A stretch of 44,780 bases of DNA from Candidatus Eiseniibacteriota bacterium. GTDB lineage: Bacteria > Eisenbacteria > RBG-16-71-46 > JACRLI01. Each line of letters opens with the position of its first letter. Position 1 is the stretch's first letter. The position numbers and the translations under genes are program-made. Below, piece by piece: positions 317 to 25,947 of this stretch. Where the stretch lies: positions 1 through 44,780 of the forward strand of contig JANXVU010000075.1 in NCBI GenBank assembly GCA_025351485.1, written 5' to 3'. The notes beneath the pieces were generated by a model. That model saw only the letters and a list, made by a program, of their open reading frames with translations. It was not told where the DNA came from and made no database searches.

Positions 317-856
317 CTACAGCCCCTCCCCGGGCTGGGTGGGCTCCATCCGCAGTGCATTGTTGAACCGGTTGAAGTAGTTGAACACCCCGACGACCAT
401 GGTGATCTCGACGATCTGGCCCTCGTCCCAGGAGGAGCGCATTCGCGCCACCAGCGCGTCGTCCACGTTGTTGGAATCGGAGTTCACCCGGTCGGCCCAG
501 GCCAGGGCGGCCCGCTCAGGCTCGCTGAAGGGGCCGGATTCGTACTCGAGGATGTTCTCCAATTGCTCCACGGTCGCTCCGTACCGTCCTGCCAGGACGG
601 TGTGCGAGCGCAGTCAATAGACGCAGTTGTTCCGGCGGCTCACCAGGACCGTGACCAGTTCCTTCAACAGCGGCGGCACCGTGCCTTCGCTCATGACCAT
701 GCTGTAGTGGGAGATCATGGTCTTGAGGTGCGAGGGGCGCTGCGCGACCACCCGGAACATGTTTGGAACATTTCCCCGCTCCCGGCCAAACTTCTCGTAG
801 ATCTCCTTCACCGCGGGCGGGACTTCTTCCTTGGTCAAACGCTTCAGAATGGACAT
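317..856 (-). CDS. AhpD-like alkylhydroperoxidase, probable selenoprotein (Sec81 encoded by UGA)
   Basis: Carboxymuconolactone decarboxylase/AhpD-family protein, a thiol peroxidase fold using a CxxC pair. The frame from ATG 856 (GGAGG 5 bases upstream) is interrupted only by TGA at 614-616 and resumes in the same frame to TAG at 317, giving 179 residues when UGA is read as an amino acid. The UGA falls exactly on the second cysteine of the motif: E68, then C78 twelve residues on, then V-Y-U81, then H85 four residues after U. These spacings match E118/C130/C133/H137 of Mycobacterium AhpD. The sequence on both sides is ordinary family sequence, including FNYFNRFNNALR near the end. A bSECIS-like hairpin follows the UGA. 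CxxU forms of AhpD-like proteins are known in other bacteria. The alternative is a pseudogene made by one TGC-to-TGA change. The gene is divergent from actA. Confidence 0.82.
575..616 (-). promoter_or_regulatory. Candidate bacterial SECIS element with its UGA codon
   Basis: On the minus strand, UGA at 616-614 is followed by a perfect 8-bp hairpin, ACCGUCCU pairing with AGGACGGU (601-594 with 590-583), closed by the three-base loop GGC (593-591). Twenty bases separate UGA from the first loop G, within the 16-37 range used for bacterial SECIS elements, and the first two loop bases are both G, as SelB recognition needs. A second helix, CGCUC with GAGCG (610-606 with 579-575), extends the stem across a small internal loop. 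The hairpin lies inside the coding region, as expected in bacteria. Confidence 0.75.
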
Positions 857-1170: not shown

Positions 1171-1761
1171 ATGAAGACATATTTCCTTCCCTTGACCGCG
1201 CTTGCCGCGGTGACCATTCTTGCCGCCGCGTTGAGCGGTTGCAGCCCCGCTCGGGGGTCCGAGACCAAGGACGGCCTCATTACCGTGCCCGCCAGCGAGC
1301 ACGGGAACCCGTCTTCGGCCCCGGTCCAGCCCGTCGATTACCGTCATAGCATCCATGCGGGCCAGTACAAGATCCCCTGCCTCTACTGTCACAGTTACGC
1401 GGACAAGTCGCCCGTCGCGAACGTTCCGGCGGTGTCCACGTGCATGAACTGCCACCGCATCATCGCGGGCTCGACGCCTTATAATCAGCAGGAAATCGCG
1501 AAGGTCGTGGATTACTGGACCAAGGGGCAGCCGATTCCCTGGGTGAGCATCCACCGCCTGCCCGACCACGCGTACTTCAGCCACAAGCGGCACGTGAAGG
1601 CCGGGATGCAATGCCAGACCTGCCACGGCCCGATCCAGAACATGGACCACGTGTATCAGTATTCGTCCCTGAAGATGGGCTGGTGCGTGACGTGCCACAA
1701 AGCCAACCTGCACAACGCCCAGTTCGCCACCAGCATTGACTGTTACACATGCCACAAGTAG
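1171..1761 (+). CDS. actA: Alternative Complex III subunit ActA, pentaheme cytochrome c
   Basis: Periplasmic electron-transfer subunit of the quinol:cytochrome c/HiPIP oxidoreductase that replaces the bc1 complex. The 196-residue protein has exactly five CxxCH heme c sites (C70-H74, C91-H95, C148-H152, C172-H176, C191-H195), as in characterised ActA proteins. The N-terminus is a lipoprotein signal: hydrophobic stretch, then lipobox LSGC with the lipidated cysteine at C24, so it is probably tethered to the membrane. It is the first gene of actABCDEF; the next gene starts 7 bases after its stop. No strong ribosome site precedes the ATG. The identification rests on heme count, size and gene order. 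Confidence 0.93.
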   Translation: MKTYFLPLTALAAVTILAAALSGCSPARGSETKDGLITVPASEHGNPSSAPVQPVDYRHSIHAGQYKIPCLYCHSYADKSPVANVPAVSTCMNCHRIIAGSTPYNQQEIAKVVDYWTKGQPIPWVSIHRLPDHAYFSHKRHVKAGMQCQTCHGPIQNMDHVYQYSSLKMGWCVTCHKANLHNAQFATSIDCYTCHK

Positions 1762-1768
1762 AGGGACT

Positions 1769-4705
1769 ATGTCGGGCGGCTTGAAGCGTCGTGACTTTCT
1801 AAAGCTGGTGGGGGTCGGCGGCGCCGGCCTGGCTCTCAGCTCCTGTAAAAAGGAGACTGAGAAGCTGATCCCGTTTGTCCAGCAGCCCGAAGACATCATT
1901 CCGGGGATCCCGACCTACTACGCCAGTTCCTGCCGCGACTGCGCCGCCGGATGCGGCCTGGTGGTCAAGACCCGGGAAGGCCGCGTCATCAAGCTGGACG
2001 GCAACGCCGACCACCCGGTCAACCGCGGCGGCCTGTGCGCCCGCGGGCACGGCGCGCTCCAGGACCTCTACAACCCCGACCGCCTGCGCACCCCGGTGAA
2101 AAAGAACGGCTCCGCCTGGGACAAGATCTCCTGGGACGACGCCATCGCGCTGCTGGCCCAGAAGGCCAAGGCCGCCGGCGCCAGGACCGCCGTGCTGACC
2201 GGCCACGAGACGGGCTCGGTGGACGCGCTGATCGGGGAGTGGATGAAGGCCCTGGCGTCCCCACACCATCTGCGCTACGAGGCTTTCGGCTTCGAGCCGC
2301 TCCGCGAGGCCACCCGGATCGCTTTCGGCAAGGCCGTCGTGCCCAGCTACCACTTTGACAAGGCCAAGCTGGTGTTCAGCTTCGGCGCTGACTTCCTGCA
2401 GGACTGGACCAGCCCGGTGAAGGCCGCCAGGGGCATGGCCGACGCCCGCGGCGGAAAGTCCGACGGACAGCGCTACGTCGCATTCGATGCGCGCCCGAAC
2501 CTGGCCGCCTCCAACGCCGACGAGCACGTTTCCATCAAGCCCGGCTCCGATATGGCCGTAGCCTTGGGGCTGCTGCACGTGATCGCCTCGGAAAACCTGG
2601 GCTCGGTCCCGGGCGGGGCGCCCGCGGGCTTTGACCCGGCGTCCGTGGAAGCCCTTTCGGGAGTCAAGCAGGACTCCCTCAAGCGGCTGGCGCGCGAGTT
2701 CGCGAAGACCCGGCCGGGTCTCGCGGTGGCCGGCGGAGTGGCGACGCAGGGCGACAACGCCACGGCGCTGTGCCTTGCGGTGCACTTGCTGAACGCCGCG
2801 GTCGGCGCGGTGGGGACCACCGTGGACCTGGACGGCGCCATGCGCATGGAAAACTTGGCCTCGGCCCGCGATCTGGTGGAACTTGGCAAGAAGATGGCGG
2901 CCAAGGAAATCGAATTGCTGGTGGTGTACGGGCCGAATCCGCTTTACACCTTGCCCAGGTCACTCGCTTTCCAGGCCGCCATGCAGGCCGTGCCGTTCAA
3001 GGTGAGCTTTGCCCGGCAATTGGACGAGACTTCCGAGCTGTGCGACCTGATCCTGCCGGTCAGCCACCCGCTCGAATCGTGGGACGACGCCGAGCCGGTG
3101 GCCGGCGTGCGCAACCTGATGCAGCCCGCCATGCGCCCGGTGTTCGGCTCGCGCTCGGCCGGTGAAGTGGTGTTCGCGGCGGCCAAGCAGAACGGCGCCA
3201 CCCCGCGCGGAGCGGACTTCCTGGGCTACATGCAGGAGCAGTGGAAGGGCGCCCAGTCGGGCGGCGACTTCGACGCATTCTGGGAAAAGGCGGTCCAGTC
3301 GGGCGGCGTGTGGAATCCGCCGGCCGCGCAGCCGCACGGTTTTGCCGGCACTGTAAACGTGAAGTGGGCGGCCCCGAAACTGCAGGGCTCCGATTCCGAC
3401 CCGGTGCTGATGCTGGTCCCGACCGCCCACATGTACGACGGCCGCGGCGCCAACAAGCCGTGGATGCAGGAAGTGCCCGATCCGGTCACCAAGACCATGT
3501 GGCACACCTGGGCCGAGATCTCGCCCACCATGGCCAAGAAGCTCGGGGTCACCGAGGACGGCGACCTGCTGGACATCGAAGGACTGGAAGAAAAGCTGAA
3601 CGTGCGCGCCTACATCCACGACGGGCTGCGCGACGACGTGGTGGCGATCAGCCTGGGCCAGGGCCACACCAGCTACGGCCGGTACGCCAAGGACCGCGGC
3701 GTGAACGCCATGACCGCGATGCGCCCGGTGATGGACGAAGCCTCCGGCGCCCTGGCCTTCATGCAGGCCCGCGCCAAGGTCACCCGCGCCGGAGGGCACA
3801 AGAAGCTTTCGCTGGCCCAGGGCGGCAGCGACCAGCTTGGCCGCGGCATCGCCCAGACGGTGACGATCGATGAACTGCTGCACCCCAAGCCGGCTCCGAA
3901 GTACCCGGGCAACGACGACTTCGAGGTCGAGGGGACGTACGTTCCGAACTACAAGAAGGAATACGAGAAGCACCCGCTGAGCGGCAATCCGATGATGACC
4001 AAGCACCGCTGGGGCATGGCCATCGACCTGGACCGCTGCACCGGCTGCAGCGCCTGCGTCACGGCGTGCTACACCGAGAACAACATCCAGATCGTGGGAG
4101 AAAACGAGACCTGGAAGCGCCGCGACATGGGCTGGATCCGGATTGAAAAGTACCTCGAGCACGGAGCCGACGGCTCGGTCGAGGTGCGCATGGTGCCCAT
4201 GGCCTGCCAGCAGTGCGATAACGCCCCGTGCGAGTACGTGTGCCCGGTATACGCCACGTACCACAATCCGGAAGGCATCAGCGCCCAGATCTACAACCGG
4301 TGCATCGGCACCCGTTACTGCGCCAACAACTGCCCGTACCGCGCGCGCAAGTTCAACTACCAGGAGCCGGTAATTCCGGAGCCGCTGAACTGGCAGTTGA
4401 ACCCGGATGTGACGGTGCGCAGCAAGGGCGTCATGGAAAAGTGCAGCTTCTGCATCCAGCGCATCCGCGTGGGCCGCGACGCCGCCAAGGACGAGGGCCG
4501 CGACATCAAGGACGGCGAGGTGGTCACCGCGTGCGCCCAGAGCTGCCCCACGCAGGCGATCGTCTTCGGTGACCAGAACGACCCGGGCAGCCGGGTGAGC
4601 CAGATCGCGAAGGACCCGCGCGGCTACAAGGTGCTGGAGATCCTCAACACGCAGCCGAACATTCACTACCTCAAGCGCGTGCGGCGCGAGGCGGCGAAGG
4701 TCTAA
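1769..4705 (+). CDS. actB: Alternative Complex III subunit ActB, molybdopterin-like plus iron-sulfur domains
   Basis: A 978-residue fusion of a molybdopterin-oxidoreductase-like domain (about 50-720) and a ferredoxin-like domain (about 745-970). It starts with a twin-arginine signal (RRDFLK, residues 7-12) followed by a lipobox-like LSSC at C26, so it is probably Tat-exported and lipidated. An N-terminal Cys set C55, C58, C62, C90 is kept. The C-terminal domain has the four-cluster pattern: CTGCSACVTAC, CQQCDNAPCEYVC, CIGTRYCANNC, and CSFC...CAQSC. In solved ACIII structures the first domain holds no molybdenum and the second carries three 4Fe-4S and one 3Fe-4S clusters that pass electrons towards ActA; the same role is inferred here. 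An upstream in-frame start at 1736 would overlap actA and spoil the Tat signal, so ATG 1769 is chosen. Confidence 0.94.
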   Translation: MSGGLKRRDFLKLVGVGGAGLALSSCKKETEKLIPFVQQPEDIIPGIPTYYASSCRDCAAGCGLVVKTREGRVIKLDGNADHPVNRGGLCARGHGALQDLYNPDRLRTPVKKNGSAWDKISWDDAIALLAQKAKAAGARTAVLTGHETGSVDALIGEWMKALASPHHLRYEAFGFEPLREATRIAFGKAVVPSYHFDKAKLVFSFGADFLQDWTSPVKAARGMADARGGKSDGQRYVAFDARPNLAASNADEHVSIKPGSDMAVALGLLHVIASENLGSVPGGAPAGFDPASVEALSGVKQDSLKRLAREFAKTRPGLAVAGGVATQGDNATALCLAVHLLNAAVGAVGTTVDLDGAMRMENLASARDLVELGKKMAAKEIELLVVYGPNPLYTLPRSLAFQAAMQAVPFKVSFARQLDETSELCDLILPVSHPLESWDDAEPVAGVRNLMQPAMRPVFGSRSAGEVVFAAAKQNGATPRGADFLGYMQEQWKGAQSGGDFDAFWEKAVQSGGVWNPPAAQPHGFAGTVNVKWAAPKLQGSDSDPVLMLVPTAHMYDGRGANKPWMQEVPDPVTKTMWHTWAEISPTMAKKLGVTEDGDLLDIEGLEEKLNVRAYIHDGLRDDVVAISLGQGHTSYGRYAKDRGVNAMTAMRPVMDEASGALAFMQARAKVTRAGGHKKLSLAQGGSDQLGRGIAQTVTIDELLHPKPAPKYPGNDDFEVEGTYVPNYKKEYEKHPLSGNPMMTKHRWGMAIDLDRCTGCSACVTACYTENNIQIVGENETWKRRDMGWIRIEKYLEHGADGSVEVRMVPMACQQCDNAPCEYVCPVYATYHNPEGISAQIYNRCIGTRYCANNCPYRARKFNYQEPVIPEPLNWQLNPDVTVRSKGVMEKCSFCIQRIRVGRDAAKDEGRDIKDGEVVTACAQSCPTQAIVFGDQNDPGSRVSQIAKDPRGYKVLEILNTQPNIHYLKRVRREAAKV

Positions 4706-4714
4706 GGGACGGAT

Positions 4715-6058
4715 ATGGAAACCGCGGTAGCGACGAAGGAACCGAAATACCAGGACGTCAATCCCGACATTCTGGCCACGCTCGGCGGCATGGGCAAGCT
4801 CTACTGGGCTTCCCTGGCGCTGTGCGTGCTGCTGGTGATCTGGGGCGGGGCCTGCTGGACCTACCAGATCTACAACGGCATGTGGGTGTATGGCGCGACC
4901 TACCCCGCCGTGTGGGGTACCTACATCGTCAACTTCGTGTTCTGGGTGGGTATCGCCCACTCCGGCACGCTGATCTCGGCCATCCTATTCCTGCTGCGGG
5001 CCAAGTTCCGAAGGGCCATCTATCGATGCGCCGAGGCCATGACCGTGTTCGCGGTCATGACCGCCGGGCTCTTCCCGGTGTTGCACGTCGGCCGCCCGTG
5101 GTTCATCTACTTCGCGCTTCCGTACCCAAACCAGCGCCAGCTGTGGGTGAACTTCCGCTCCCCGCTGGTGTGGGACGTGTTCGCGGTCAGCACCTACTTC
5201 ACGGTGAGCTCCCTGTTCCTGTACACCGGCTTGATCCCGGACATCGCCGCCGCGCGCGACGCCGTCAAGCCGGGCATCCGCAAGTTCGTCTACACGTTGC
5301 TCTCGCTGGGCTGGCGCGGCACCGACCGCGAGTGGAAGCACTTCAACGGCGCCTACATCTACCTGGCCGCCTTCGCGACCCCGCTGGTGCTCTCGGTGCA
5401 CAGCGTGGTTTCCTGGGACTTCGCCATGTCCATCAACCCGGGCTGGCACAGCACCATCTTCGCGCCGTACTTCGTGGCCGGCGCCATCTTCTCGGGCGTC
5501 GGGATGGTGATCACCATCATGGTGCCGCTGCGCAAGATGCTCAAGCTGGAGCGCTGGGTCACCATCGACCATTTCGACAAGATGGCCAAGCTGTGCCTGT
5601 TCACCTCGATGATCGTGGGCTACGCGTACTTCACCGAGTTCTTCCTGGTGTGGTACCACGGCAACGAGTTCGAGGTGGAGGTGTTCCGGAACCGCTTCTT
5701 CGGCCCGATGTGGGCGGCCGGCTGGATGATGCTGGCGTGCAACGTGTTCTTCCCAATCTTGTTATTCTGGAAGAAGGTTCGCACCAACCTGACCATGCTG
5801 TGGATCCTGTCGCTGTTCGTGAACGTGGGCATGTGGCTGGAGCGTTTTGTGATCGTGGTCCAGTCGCTGACCCGCCCGTTCCTGCCGTACGTGAACACCC
5901 AGATCTACCGCATCGGATTCGTGGAGACCGGGATCTTCTTTGGGAGTTTCGGTTGGTTCTTCATGTGGTTCCTGCTGTTCACGCGCTTCCTGCCGATCGT
6001 GGCCATCGCCGAAGTGAAGGAAATCCTGCCCTTCACCAAGAAAGCGAAGGTGGCCTAG
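4715..6058 (+). CDS. actC: Alternative Complex III subunit ActC, NrfD-like quinol-binding membrane protein
   Basis: A 447-residue polytopic membrane protein of the NrfD/PsrC family with about ten hydrophobic segments and a soluble N-terminal tail of about 25 residues. In ACIII, ActC holds the periplasm-side quinol site that feeds electrons to the 3Fe-4S cluster of ActB. The sequence keeps the family patterns HSGTLISAILFLLRA in the second helix region and the HSVVSWDFAMS segment, with several charged residues inside helices (for example HVGRPWF). It lies 9 bases after actB, and its stop codon is followed directly by the actD ATG, so translation is coupled. Confidence 0.94.
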   Translation: METAVATKEPKYQDVNPDILATLGGMGKLYWASLALCVLLVIWGGACWTYQIYNGMWVYGATYPAVWGTYIVNFVFWVGIAHSGTLISAILFLLRAKFRRAIYRCAEAMTVFAVMTAGLFPVLHVGRPWFIYFALPYPNQRQLWVNFRSPLVWDVFAVSTYFTVSSLFLYTGLIPDIAAARDAVKPGIRKFVYTLLSLGWRGTDREWKHFNGAYIYLAAFATPLVLSVHSVVSWDFAMSINPGWHSTIFAPYFVAGAIFSGVGMVITIMVPLRKMLKLERWVTIDHFDKMAKLCLFTSMIVGYAYFTEFFLVWYHGNEFEVEVFRNRFFGPMWAAGWMMLACNVFFPILLFWKKVRTNLTMLWILSLFVNVGMWLERFVIVVQSLTRPFLPYVNTQIYRIGFVETGIFFGSFGWFFMWFLLFTRFLPIVAIAEVKEILPFTKKAKVA

Positions 6059-6568
6059 ATGAAGCCGCAGGGAGTCCTGGGGATCTTCGGAGACATGGAC
6101 ACCGCGTGCGAGGCGATTCGCGAGCTCAAGTCCTCGGGCTACGGCCGCCTGGAAGTGCTCTCTCCGGCGCCGCACCACGAGCTGGAGCACGCCCTGGACG
6201 ACGGCCCGAGCGGGGTGAAGTGGTTCACCCTGACCGGCGCGCTCACCGGGCTGGCCTCGGCCATCGCCCTCACCACCTGGACCTCCAACGACTGGCCGCT
6301 GGTGACGGGGGGCAAGCCCATCGTCATCTCGCCCGGGTACTTCGTGATCATGTTCGAGCTGACCGTTCTGTTCTCGGCCATCTTCAGCCTGACCGGATTC
6401 ATCGTGCTGTCCAGGCTGCCGCACACGCGCCTGCGGGTGGGCTACGACGAGCGCTTCTCGGACGCCTCGATCGGGATCTGGCTGCCGGTGGCCCGCGAAA
6501 AATTCGACGCCGCGACCGCCGCCCTGAAAAAGCACGGCGCGGAGGAGGTCAAGCTTGAGACGCGTTAG
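6059..6568 (+). CDS. actD: Alternative Complex III subunit ActD (DUF3341)
   Basis: A 169-residue DUF3341 protein. It begins with a soluble ferredoxin-like segment (GVLGIFGDMDTACEAIREL) and then has a helical hairpin: one membrane segment near residues 58-77 and a second near 96-120, followed by a cytoplasmic tail. In ACIII this subunit packs against the membrane part and has no redox cofactor. It begins on the base after the actC stop and overlaps actE by 14 bases. Confidence 0.92.
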   Translation: MKPQGVLGIFGDMDTACEAIRELKSSGYGRLEVLSPAPHHELEHALDDGPSGVKWFTLTGALTGLASAIALTTWTSNDWPLVTGGKPIVISPGYFVIMFELTVLFSAIFSLTGFIVLSRLPHTRLRVGYDERFSDASIGIWLPVAREKFDAATAALKKHGAEEVKLETR

Positions 6569-22566: not shown

Positions 22567-23258
<692 letters not shown>

Positions 23259-23268
23259 GCGATCTCCC

Positions 23269-24447
23269 TTAGCTCCCCGCGGATTCCGCGGCGGGCATGA
23301 TTTTCGAGCCCTCTTTCAAATTCGGCGCCGGCTTGAGCACCAGCGATTCGTTTCCGGCGAGGCCGCGCTTGATTTCCAGCTGGCCGGGGGATCCGGGGGC
23401 CGTCTCCACCGGGAGCCATCTCAGCATCCCGCCGGTCTCGACCGACCATACCCCGGTGTCGTTGCCACGCTTGACCACCGTGCTTTCCGGCACGTAGATG
23501 CGCGGCGGGGCCTTGGGCATCGCGGTCTTTTCGCCGGTCTTCAAGAACGTGACCTTGGCGGTCATATCGGGCCGCACCTGCGGGAGAGGCCGAAGGATCG
23601 AGACCTTGGCCTGCACCGTGGCCTTCTGGCGGTTCGCGGTCGGTTGGATCATGCGGATGCGCGCCCCCATGCTCTGGCCGGGCAGCGCGTCCACTTCCAC
23701 GCGGCACGGCTGGCCGGGGCGAAGTTGCGCGATGTTGGATTCGTTGACGTCGGCTTCCACTTCCAGGTCGGACAGATCGGCGATCACGAAACCCCGGTCC
23801 TGGCTGTTGGAGGCGCTGATGTAGCCGTTGGGGGCCACCGTTTCGCCCAGCTGCAGATTGCGAAGGATGATGGTGCCCGCGAACGGCGCCCGGATCGCCA
23901 GCTGCTCCTGCTGCGACTGCACCACCTTGACCTGGGCTTCCAGCGTGCGCACCCGGGTGTCGGCCGCATCGAACGCGGCGGGGGTGGTGAGGTTGCGGGC
24001 CATCAGGGCCTTCTGCCGGGTGAGCTCGTTGCGCGCCTGGGGCAGGCTGGCCTCCACCTGCGCAAGCTGCGCCGGGAGGTCCCCCTGGTCCATGGTGGCC
24101 AGGAGCTGGCCCACAGAGACCCGGCTGCCCTCGTCCACGTACATCCTGTCCACGCGGCCCACCACCTTGCTGCCCACCCGGGCCTGGCGGCGGGAAACCA
24201 CGTACCCGCTGGCGGAGAGCATCTCGTTGCCCAGGTCGCTTCGGCTCACCATCGGGGTGGTGACGGCCACCCTGGCCGGGCGGTTCAGGAAGGCGCGGGC
24301 GCCCAAAGCGGCGGCGGCCACCACGGCCAGCAGCACGATCAGGCCAACCCAGCGGCCGGCACTGCCGCCCCCGGAAGTCGGACGGTCGGGCTCGCCCCGG
24401 TGGATCTTCAACCCGGAAAGATCGGGTCCAGCGTTCGTTTGGCTCAT
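23269..24447 (-). CDS. Periplasmic adaptor (membrane fusion) protein, HlyD/MacA type
   Basis: A 392-residue adaptor: cytoplasmic tail, one inner-membrane helix ([22 protein letters not shown], near 35-56), lipoyl half-motif [22 protein letters not shown], a coiled-coil hairpin (about 120-190, [16 protein letters not shown]), second lipoyl half [19 protein letters not shown], and beta-barrel/proximal domains. It would link the MacB-like transporter to an outer-membrane channel encoded elsewhere. ATG 24447 is used; a strong promoter places the start of transcription only a few bases upstream, so the transcript may be nearly leaderless. An upstream in-frame ATG at 24486 would lie before this promoter. 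Confidence 0.88.
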
Positions 24448-24456
24448 GGATTCCGA

Positions 24457-24486
24457 AGGATAAGAGTGGAGGTCACCGGGTGTCAA
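24457..24486 (-). promoter_or_regulatory. Promoter of the ABC exporter operon
   Basis: On the minus strand TTGACA (24486-24481), an 18-base spacer, and TATCCT (24462-24457). The -35 is perfect. Transcription would begin near 24450, about 3 bases from the adaptor ATG at 24447, implying a leaderless or almost leaderless message. Confidence 0.55.
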
Positions 24487-24573
24487 CGCGGCCGTAAGTT
24501 TGGATGCTTCATCGGGTTTGGGGTTGCGCGCCGACGGTCAATTTTTCACCCGGGCCGGGGCCGGGGAGGAGGT

Positions 24574-24602
24574 TTGACGGGATCGCCGGGGGACCCTATC
24601 CT
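24574..24602 (+). promoter_or_regulatory. Promoter of ispG
   Basis: TTGACG (24574-24579), a 17-base spacer, and TATCCT (24597-24602). The -10 is identical to that of the divergent exporter promoter. The predicted leader is about 50 bases. The 210-base gap between the two genes holds both promoters and nothing else I can recognise. Confidence 0.5.
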
Positions 24603-24657
24603 ACGTCCATCAACCCGGTTCTCCGCCTTCCATGGCGGAGCCGGTCTCTCTTTGCCC

Positions 24658-25947
24658 ATGGCGCCCGTGGCGGGTCCAGCCCGCCCCATTCTGCGAGGTC
24701 GACCTATTTCCAGTCCTGGCATCCGGCGCAAGTCCGCCGCCGTCCGCGTTCGCGGGGTGACCCTGGGGGGCGCGAGCCCCATCGTCGTCCAGTCCATGAC
24801 CAACACCGAGACCGCCGATGCGGAATCGACGGCCCGCCAGGGCGCGCTGCTCTTCCAGGCGGGCTCGGAGTTGGTGCGCATCACGGTGAACACCCGGGAA
24901 GCCGCCGCGGCCGTGCCCGAGATCCGCCGCCGCCTGGAAGGCATGGGCCTTGATGTTCCGCTGGTGGGAGACTTTCACTACAACGGCCACCAGCTGCTCC
25001 GCGAGTACCCGGGCTGCGCCGAGGCGCTGGACAAGTACCGCATCAACCCCGGCAACGTCGGTGTGGGACGGGCGCACGACGACAACTTCCGCCAGATGAT
25101 CGAAGTGGCGGTGGCCCACCAGAAGCCGGTGCGTATCGGCGTCAACTGGGGCTCCCTGGACCGCGCGCTGCTCACCGAACTGATGAACCTGAACGCCAAG
25201 CTGTCCGAGCCGCTCGAGCCGCGCCTGGTGGTGCTGCAGGCCATGCGCGAGAGCGCGCTGCGGTCCGCCGCGCTGGCCGAAGAGTTCGGGCTGGCGCACG
25301 ATCGGATCGTGCTCTCGGCCAAGGTCTCGGGTGTACGCGACCTGGTGGACGTGTACCGCAACCTGGCCGGCCGCTGCGACTACGCGCTGCACCTGGGGCT
25401 GACCGAGGCCGGCATGGGCTCCAAGGGCATGATCGCCACGGCCTGCGCGCTGGCGCCGCTGCTGCTGGAAGGGATCGGCGACACGATCCGCACCAGCCTG
25501 ACTCCCGCCCCGGGAGGCGACCGCAGCGAAGAGGTGCGCGTGTGCCGGCAGATTCTACAGACGCTGGACCTGCGCCACTTCGAGCCGCAGGTGACCAGTT
25601 GCCCCGGCTGCGGGCGCACCAACTCCACGTTCTTCCAGGAACTGGCCGAGCAGATCCAGGGCCACATCCGAGCCCGCATGCCCGAATGGCGTTCCCGCCA
25701 TTCGGGCGTGGAAATGATGAAGATCGCCGTGATGGGATGCGTGGTGAACGGCCCGGGCGAGTCGCGCCACGCCGACATCGGCATCTCGCTGCCCGGCACG
25801 GGGGAGGACCCCAAGGCCCCGGTGTTCGTGGACGGCAAGCTGGTCACCACGCTCAAGGGGGGCGGGATCGCCCGGGAATTCATCGCCATGCTCGAGGAGT
25901 ACATCGAGCGCCGCTATGGATCCGCCACCAGCTCCACCACGGCCTGA
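24658..25947 (+). CDS. ispG: 4-hydroxy-3-methylbut-2-enyl diphosphate synthase
   Basis: IspG (GcpE) makes HMBPP in the MEP pathway of isoprenoid synthesis, using a 4Fe-4S cluster. The 429-residue protein has the family opening [18 protein letters not shown], the central TIM-barrel blocks ([31 protein letters not shown]) and the cluster ligands C315 and C318 in SCPGCGRTN and C361 in [10 protein letters not shown], with the conserved glutamate following. ATG 24658 is the best start; a frame open far upstream is antisense to the adaptor gene. It is probably co-transcribed with the transporter gene that follows after 4 bases. Confidence 0.95.

Follow-up and report, generated by a model that had tools for sequence, protein, structure and literature searches.

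A SECIS-type hairpin after the in-frame UGA of a divergent AhpD-like selenoprotein gene from Candidatus Eiseniibacteriota

AhpD-like proteins with a CxxU motif were first found as a selenoprotein family in the Sargasso Sea selenoproteome (PMC1088965), and a 2026 review lists the family (AhpD-like protein, TIGR01926, CxxU) among the known prokaryotic selenoproteins (PMC13188914). Sec forms are also already annotated in two related AhpD-domain families, the YciW-related (seleno)proteins (NF053654) and the AhpD-related (seleno)proteins (NF041238). In PA0269 of P. aeruginosa, the proton-relay residues are Glu36, Cys48, Tyr50, Cys51, and His55 (PMC3141380). The published constraints on the bacterial SECIS (bSECIS) are a loop of 3-9 nt with G in the first two positions, an upper stem of 4-16 bp, a spacing of 16-37 nt from the UGA, and a folding energy of -7.5 kcal/mol or lower (PMC13188914). 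The locus described here lies in a 44,780-nt stretch of DNA from a Candidatus Eiseniibacteriota bacterium (contig JANXVU010000075.1), hereafter the window. In contrast to the family as described, this member comes from a small phylum represented by 47 genomes, all of one class; a phylum search and a class search gave the same 47 genomes. The gene and its in-frame TGA are as follows.

317..856, minus strand: AhpD-like selenoprotein CDS of 179 aa with one in-frame TGA read through (PF02627, TIGR01926; homology even across the TGA)
614..616, minus strand: UGA read as selenocysteine 81, the second residue of the C-x-x-U motif (TGA in 27 other homologues, TGC or TGT in 56)

The 179-aa product matches PF02627 (E 3.7e-12; 46.5 bits against a cut-off of 23) and scores 81.8 bits with TIGR01926, "peroxidase-related enzyme", which is exactly the curated cut-off. 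Relatives with solved structures, such as 2oyo, 6k40, and 2o4d, are either peroxidase-related or AhpD-like. Membership in NF053654 and in NF041238 was rejected, as the product scores 75.9 bits against a cut-off of 310 for the former and 29.4 bits against 175 for the latter. The UGA occupies the second Cys position of C-x-x-C (R-N-N-C78-V-Y-U81-L-R-S-H85), and E66, C78, Y80, U81, and H85 are spaced like the proton-relay residues of PA0269. The E-x11-C-x-Y/H-C-x3-H spacing is common to the window protein, M. tuberculosis AhpD, and PA0269, whereas the second catalytic Cys of the latter two is Sec in the window protein. With the described AhpD-like selenoprotein family the gene shares TIGR01926, the CxxU motif, and a bSECIS directly downstream, but it has only about 50% identity to the nearest relatives found. 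Plasmid records contain only distant relatives (<60% identity), and PADLOC found nothing. The window gene is a divergent new member of an already described selenoprotein family.

Translation with the standard code splits the AhpD-like gene into two frames at the UGA. The codon is a stop in that code, and one wrong base could be an artefact of assembly, as would suit a true stop or a nonsense mutation that leaves a pseudogene or an 80-aa truncated protein. This reading is highly improbable, however, because mean identity to the homologues is as high after the TGA (49.5%) as before it (47.5%), the same TGA is present in 27 other homologues from several phyla, and the genome contains a complete Sec machinery. 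In this genome (3.44 Mb, 98.6% complete), tRNA-Sec (70.2 bits), SelA (545.2 bits), SelD (371.3 bits), and SelB with its C-terminal part (348.6 bits) all score over their cut-offs. The selD gene (L110:1462-2538) lies directly upstream of the tRNA-Sec gene and itself encodes a selenoprotein, with the motif ECAG-U-AAK. Its SECIS, with an 8-bp stem, a GGA loop, and a 21-nt spacing, has nearly the same geometry as the AhpD-like element. A whole-genome search with a model built from 28 AhpD-like elements returned the AhpD-like element (1.8e-11) and otherwise chance-level matches only; the selD SECIS, whose sequence differs, was not picked up. Among the other genomes with a TGA form, G053 (L048) has no selA match, and G005 (L020) and G056 (L087) have no tRNA-Sec over the cut-off, probably because these assemblies are incomplete.

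Read from the UGA, the minus-strand RNA is UGA CUGCGCUCGCAC ACCGUCCU GGC AGGACGGU ACG GAGCG. The elements of its fold are listed in transcript order, except that the two arms of the lower helix are placed last.

594..601, minus strand: 5' arm of the SECIS upper stem (ACCGUCCU), from the fold; inner 7 pairs in all 28 Sec forms
591..593, minus strand: apical loop GGC, 20 nt after the UGA; the same in all 28 Sec forms
583..590, minus strand: 3' arm of the SECIS upper stem (AGGACGGU), from the fold and from pair conservation in homologues
606..610, minus strand: 5' arm of the lower 5-bp helix (CGCUC), from the fold; present here, not conserved as drawn
575..579, minus strand: 3' arm of the lower 5-bp helix (GAGCG), from the fold and from pairing in homologues

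The sequence-only reading had described a perfect 8-bp upper stem whose GGC loop starts 20 bases after the UGA, with a second 5-bp helix below it. RNAfold gives exactly this two-part fold as its minimum, with an energy of -21.2 kcal/mol and a z-score of -2.5 against dinucleotide shuffles. The 5' arm starts 12 nt downstream of the UGA, which gives a UGA-to-loop spacing of exactly 20 nt. The proposed fit to the bacterial SECIS rules, including G at both first loop bases, also holds, as the GGC loop, the 8-bp stem, the 20-nt spacing, and the folding energy all lie within the four published constraints. Compared with the bSECISearch consensus, the element shares the 8-bp upper stem, the 3-nt loop starting with GG, the 20-nt spacing, and an energy of -21 kcal/mol; it differs in that its loop is at the 3-nt lower limit, its stem is fully paired without a bulge, and its lower helix is not conserved. 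The window had no Rfam match at gathering scores. The same reading had called such a palindrome unlikely by chance, a fair judgement where a single UGA is specified in advance. Among the 933 TGA trinucleotides on the two strands of the window, however, 3 (0.3%) have a perfect stem of at least 8 bp with bSECIS geometry after them, the hairpin at 583-601 being the only one of these three with a 3-nt loop. As a Sec signal the hairpin alone is therefore suggestive, not decisive, and would not have settled the matter.

Comparison of Sec and Cys homologues is what decides the matter. In a set of 84 homologues, with the window gene included among the TGA forms, position 81 aligns with TGA in 28, TGC in 51, and TGT in 5. 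The TGA homologues belong to Acidobacteriota, to Bacillota (Thermotaleaceae), and to two further genomes of the same class as the window. The stem was scored in the same register throughout, as 7 pairs enclosing the triplet that lies 20 nt downstream, with G-U allowed. The inner 7 pairs and the GGC loop are intact in every one of the 28 TGA forms, compared with one of the 56 Cys forms (Fisher 2e-21, a value that overstates independence, since Sec and Cys fall into clusters on the tree with about 3 changes of label and the 28 and 56 sequences are not independent). Loss of the hairpin in Cys homologues had been proposed as a check on the Sec reading, and TGC homologues that keep it had been named as the observation that would speak against it; the single Cys form with an intact hairpin is L076, whose codon is TGT. 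The Sec reading passed this test: the hairpin tracks TGA among the homologues, which, with the complete Sec-decoding machinery in the genome, supports the proposed Sec insertion.

The L-A-R peptide is common to many Sec and Cys forms, and the hairpin might merely mirror the conserved peptide H-T-V/A-L-A-R-R and carry no RNA signal. The codons argue strongly against this. In Cys forms whose peptide is nearly identical, other codons are used and the stem is missing: SHTVLARR with TGA is encoded by ACC-GTC-TTG-GCA-AGA-CGG, whereas SHTVLARN with TGC is encoded by ACG-GTG-CTG-GCG-CGC-AAC. The Ala at U+8 is encoded by GCA in 28 of 28 Sec forms, compared with 5 of 56 Cys forms, and the Arg that follows it, where present, is always AGA or AGG in Sec forms and mostly CGC in Cys forms. 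Because nearly the same peptide is written with different codons in the two groups, the constraint acts on the RNA and not only on the protein. When codons were redrawn according to the genes' own usage with the amino acids fixed, the 7-pair stem appeared in a mean of 0.2% of draws over the 28 Sec genes, and the inner 7 pairs of the window gene appeared in 1.1% of draws. Covariation of the stem positions, the other check that had been proposed, gives the same answer: double changes keep the pairing at 4 of the 7 inner pairs (alignment pairs 18-32, 20-30, 21-29, and 22-28). The paired variants include CCGUCCU/AGGACGG in the window, CCGCCUU/AAGGCGG in Acidobacteriota, and CUGUUUU/AAAACAG in Thermotaleaceae. 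The covariation score of 0.235 exceeds those of all 500 shuffles and of all slid registers (maximum 0.179). Neither the codon redraw nor the covariation depends on row independence in the way that the Fisher p does, and we give the peptide-only explanation hardly any weight.

Conservation does not extend to the whole structure. The outermost of the eight pairs (A-U) is a standard pair in 11 of 28 Sec sequences. The proposed second helix is present in the window fold, but only 52% of its cells are paired in the homologues; some double changes occur at three of its pairs, the lower helices of other Sec forms fold differently, and the helix as drawn was rejected as a conserved element. What is conserved is the 7-bp stem together with its GGC loop.

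A transcription terminator, or some element with no part in decoding, would account for a perfect and GC-rich palindrome, but it is scarcely credible here, because no U run follows the hairpin, which lies within conserved coding sequence and whose presence follows TGA versus TGC/TGT in the homologues. The hairpin is almost certainly a bacterial SECIS within the CDS of a predicted AhpD-like thiol peroxidase of the CMD superfamily, where it would serve SelB-directed Sec insertion at residue 81. The analysis shows the fold directly, along with how it is conserved and covaries, that Cys forms have lost it, and that the genome encodes the Sec machinery. By analogy with established bacterial selenoprotein biology, SelB carrying Sec-tRNA-Sec would bind the upper stem with its GGC loop a short distance past the UGA, and at residue 81 the ribosome would then insert selenocysteine rather than stop. 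With its C78-V-Y-U81 redox pair, the product probably reduces peroxides or relays reducing equivalents.

The Cys form with an intact hairpin, L076 (Terriglobia JOPF158), combines a TGT codon with a complete GGC-loop stem (2241-2288), which scores 49.5 bits with the element model. L076 groups with the Sec form L096 (support 95/85) inside a Sec clade. The L096 genome has a tRNA-Sec at 73.8 bits, and in the L076 genome neither SelA nor tRNA-Sec was found over the cut-offs. The simplest reading is that L076 is an apparent recent Sec-to-Cys replacement with a leftover (fossil) SECIS. Loss of the machinery from its genome is not proved, as the assembly may be incomplete. We also put forward, as a conjecture more likely wrong than right, that the highly uniform SECIS of this family (fully paired, with a GGC triloop and no bulge) is read by the SelB of these lineages in a manner unlike the E. 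coli formate dehydrogenase elements, and that L076 has been caught just after its Sec-to-Cys change with the SECIS intact.

These results confirm that a little-studied phylum has a Sec-decoded enzyme of the AhpD-like type, and they leave existing knowledge of selenocysteine unchanged. The 28 Sec and 56 Cys homologues, with one apparent fossil SECIS, form a clean small data set on the gain and loss of Sec and its signal.

Two further observations concern other regions of the window. Divergent from the selenoprotein gene, positions 1171-6568 encode in a row a multihaem cytochrome, a molybdopterin/iron-sulphur protein, and an NrfD-like membrane protein, an arrangement that, judged from the sequence, resembles an alternative complex III operon. 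A 908-aa frame at 23221-25947 has an IspG/GcpE domain only in residues 507-892, and no Pfam family turns up at 1e-6 in its first 500 residues; the frame is either a fusion or has a start that was called too early.
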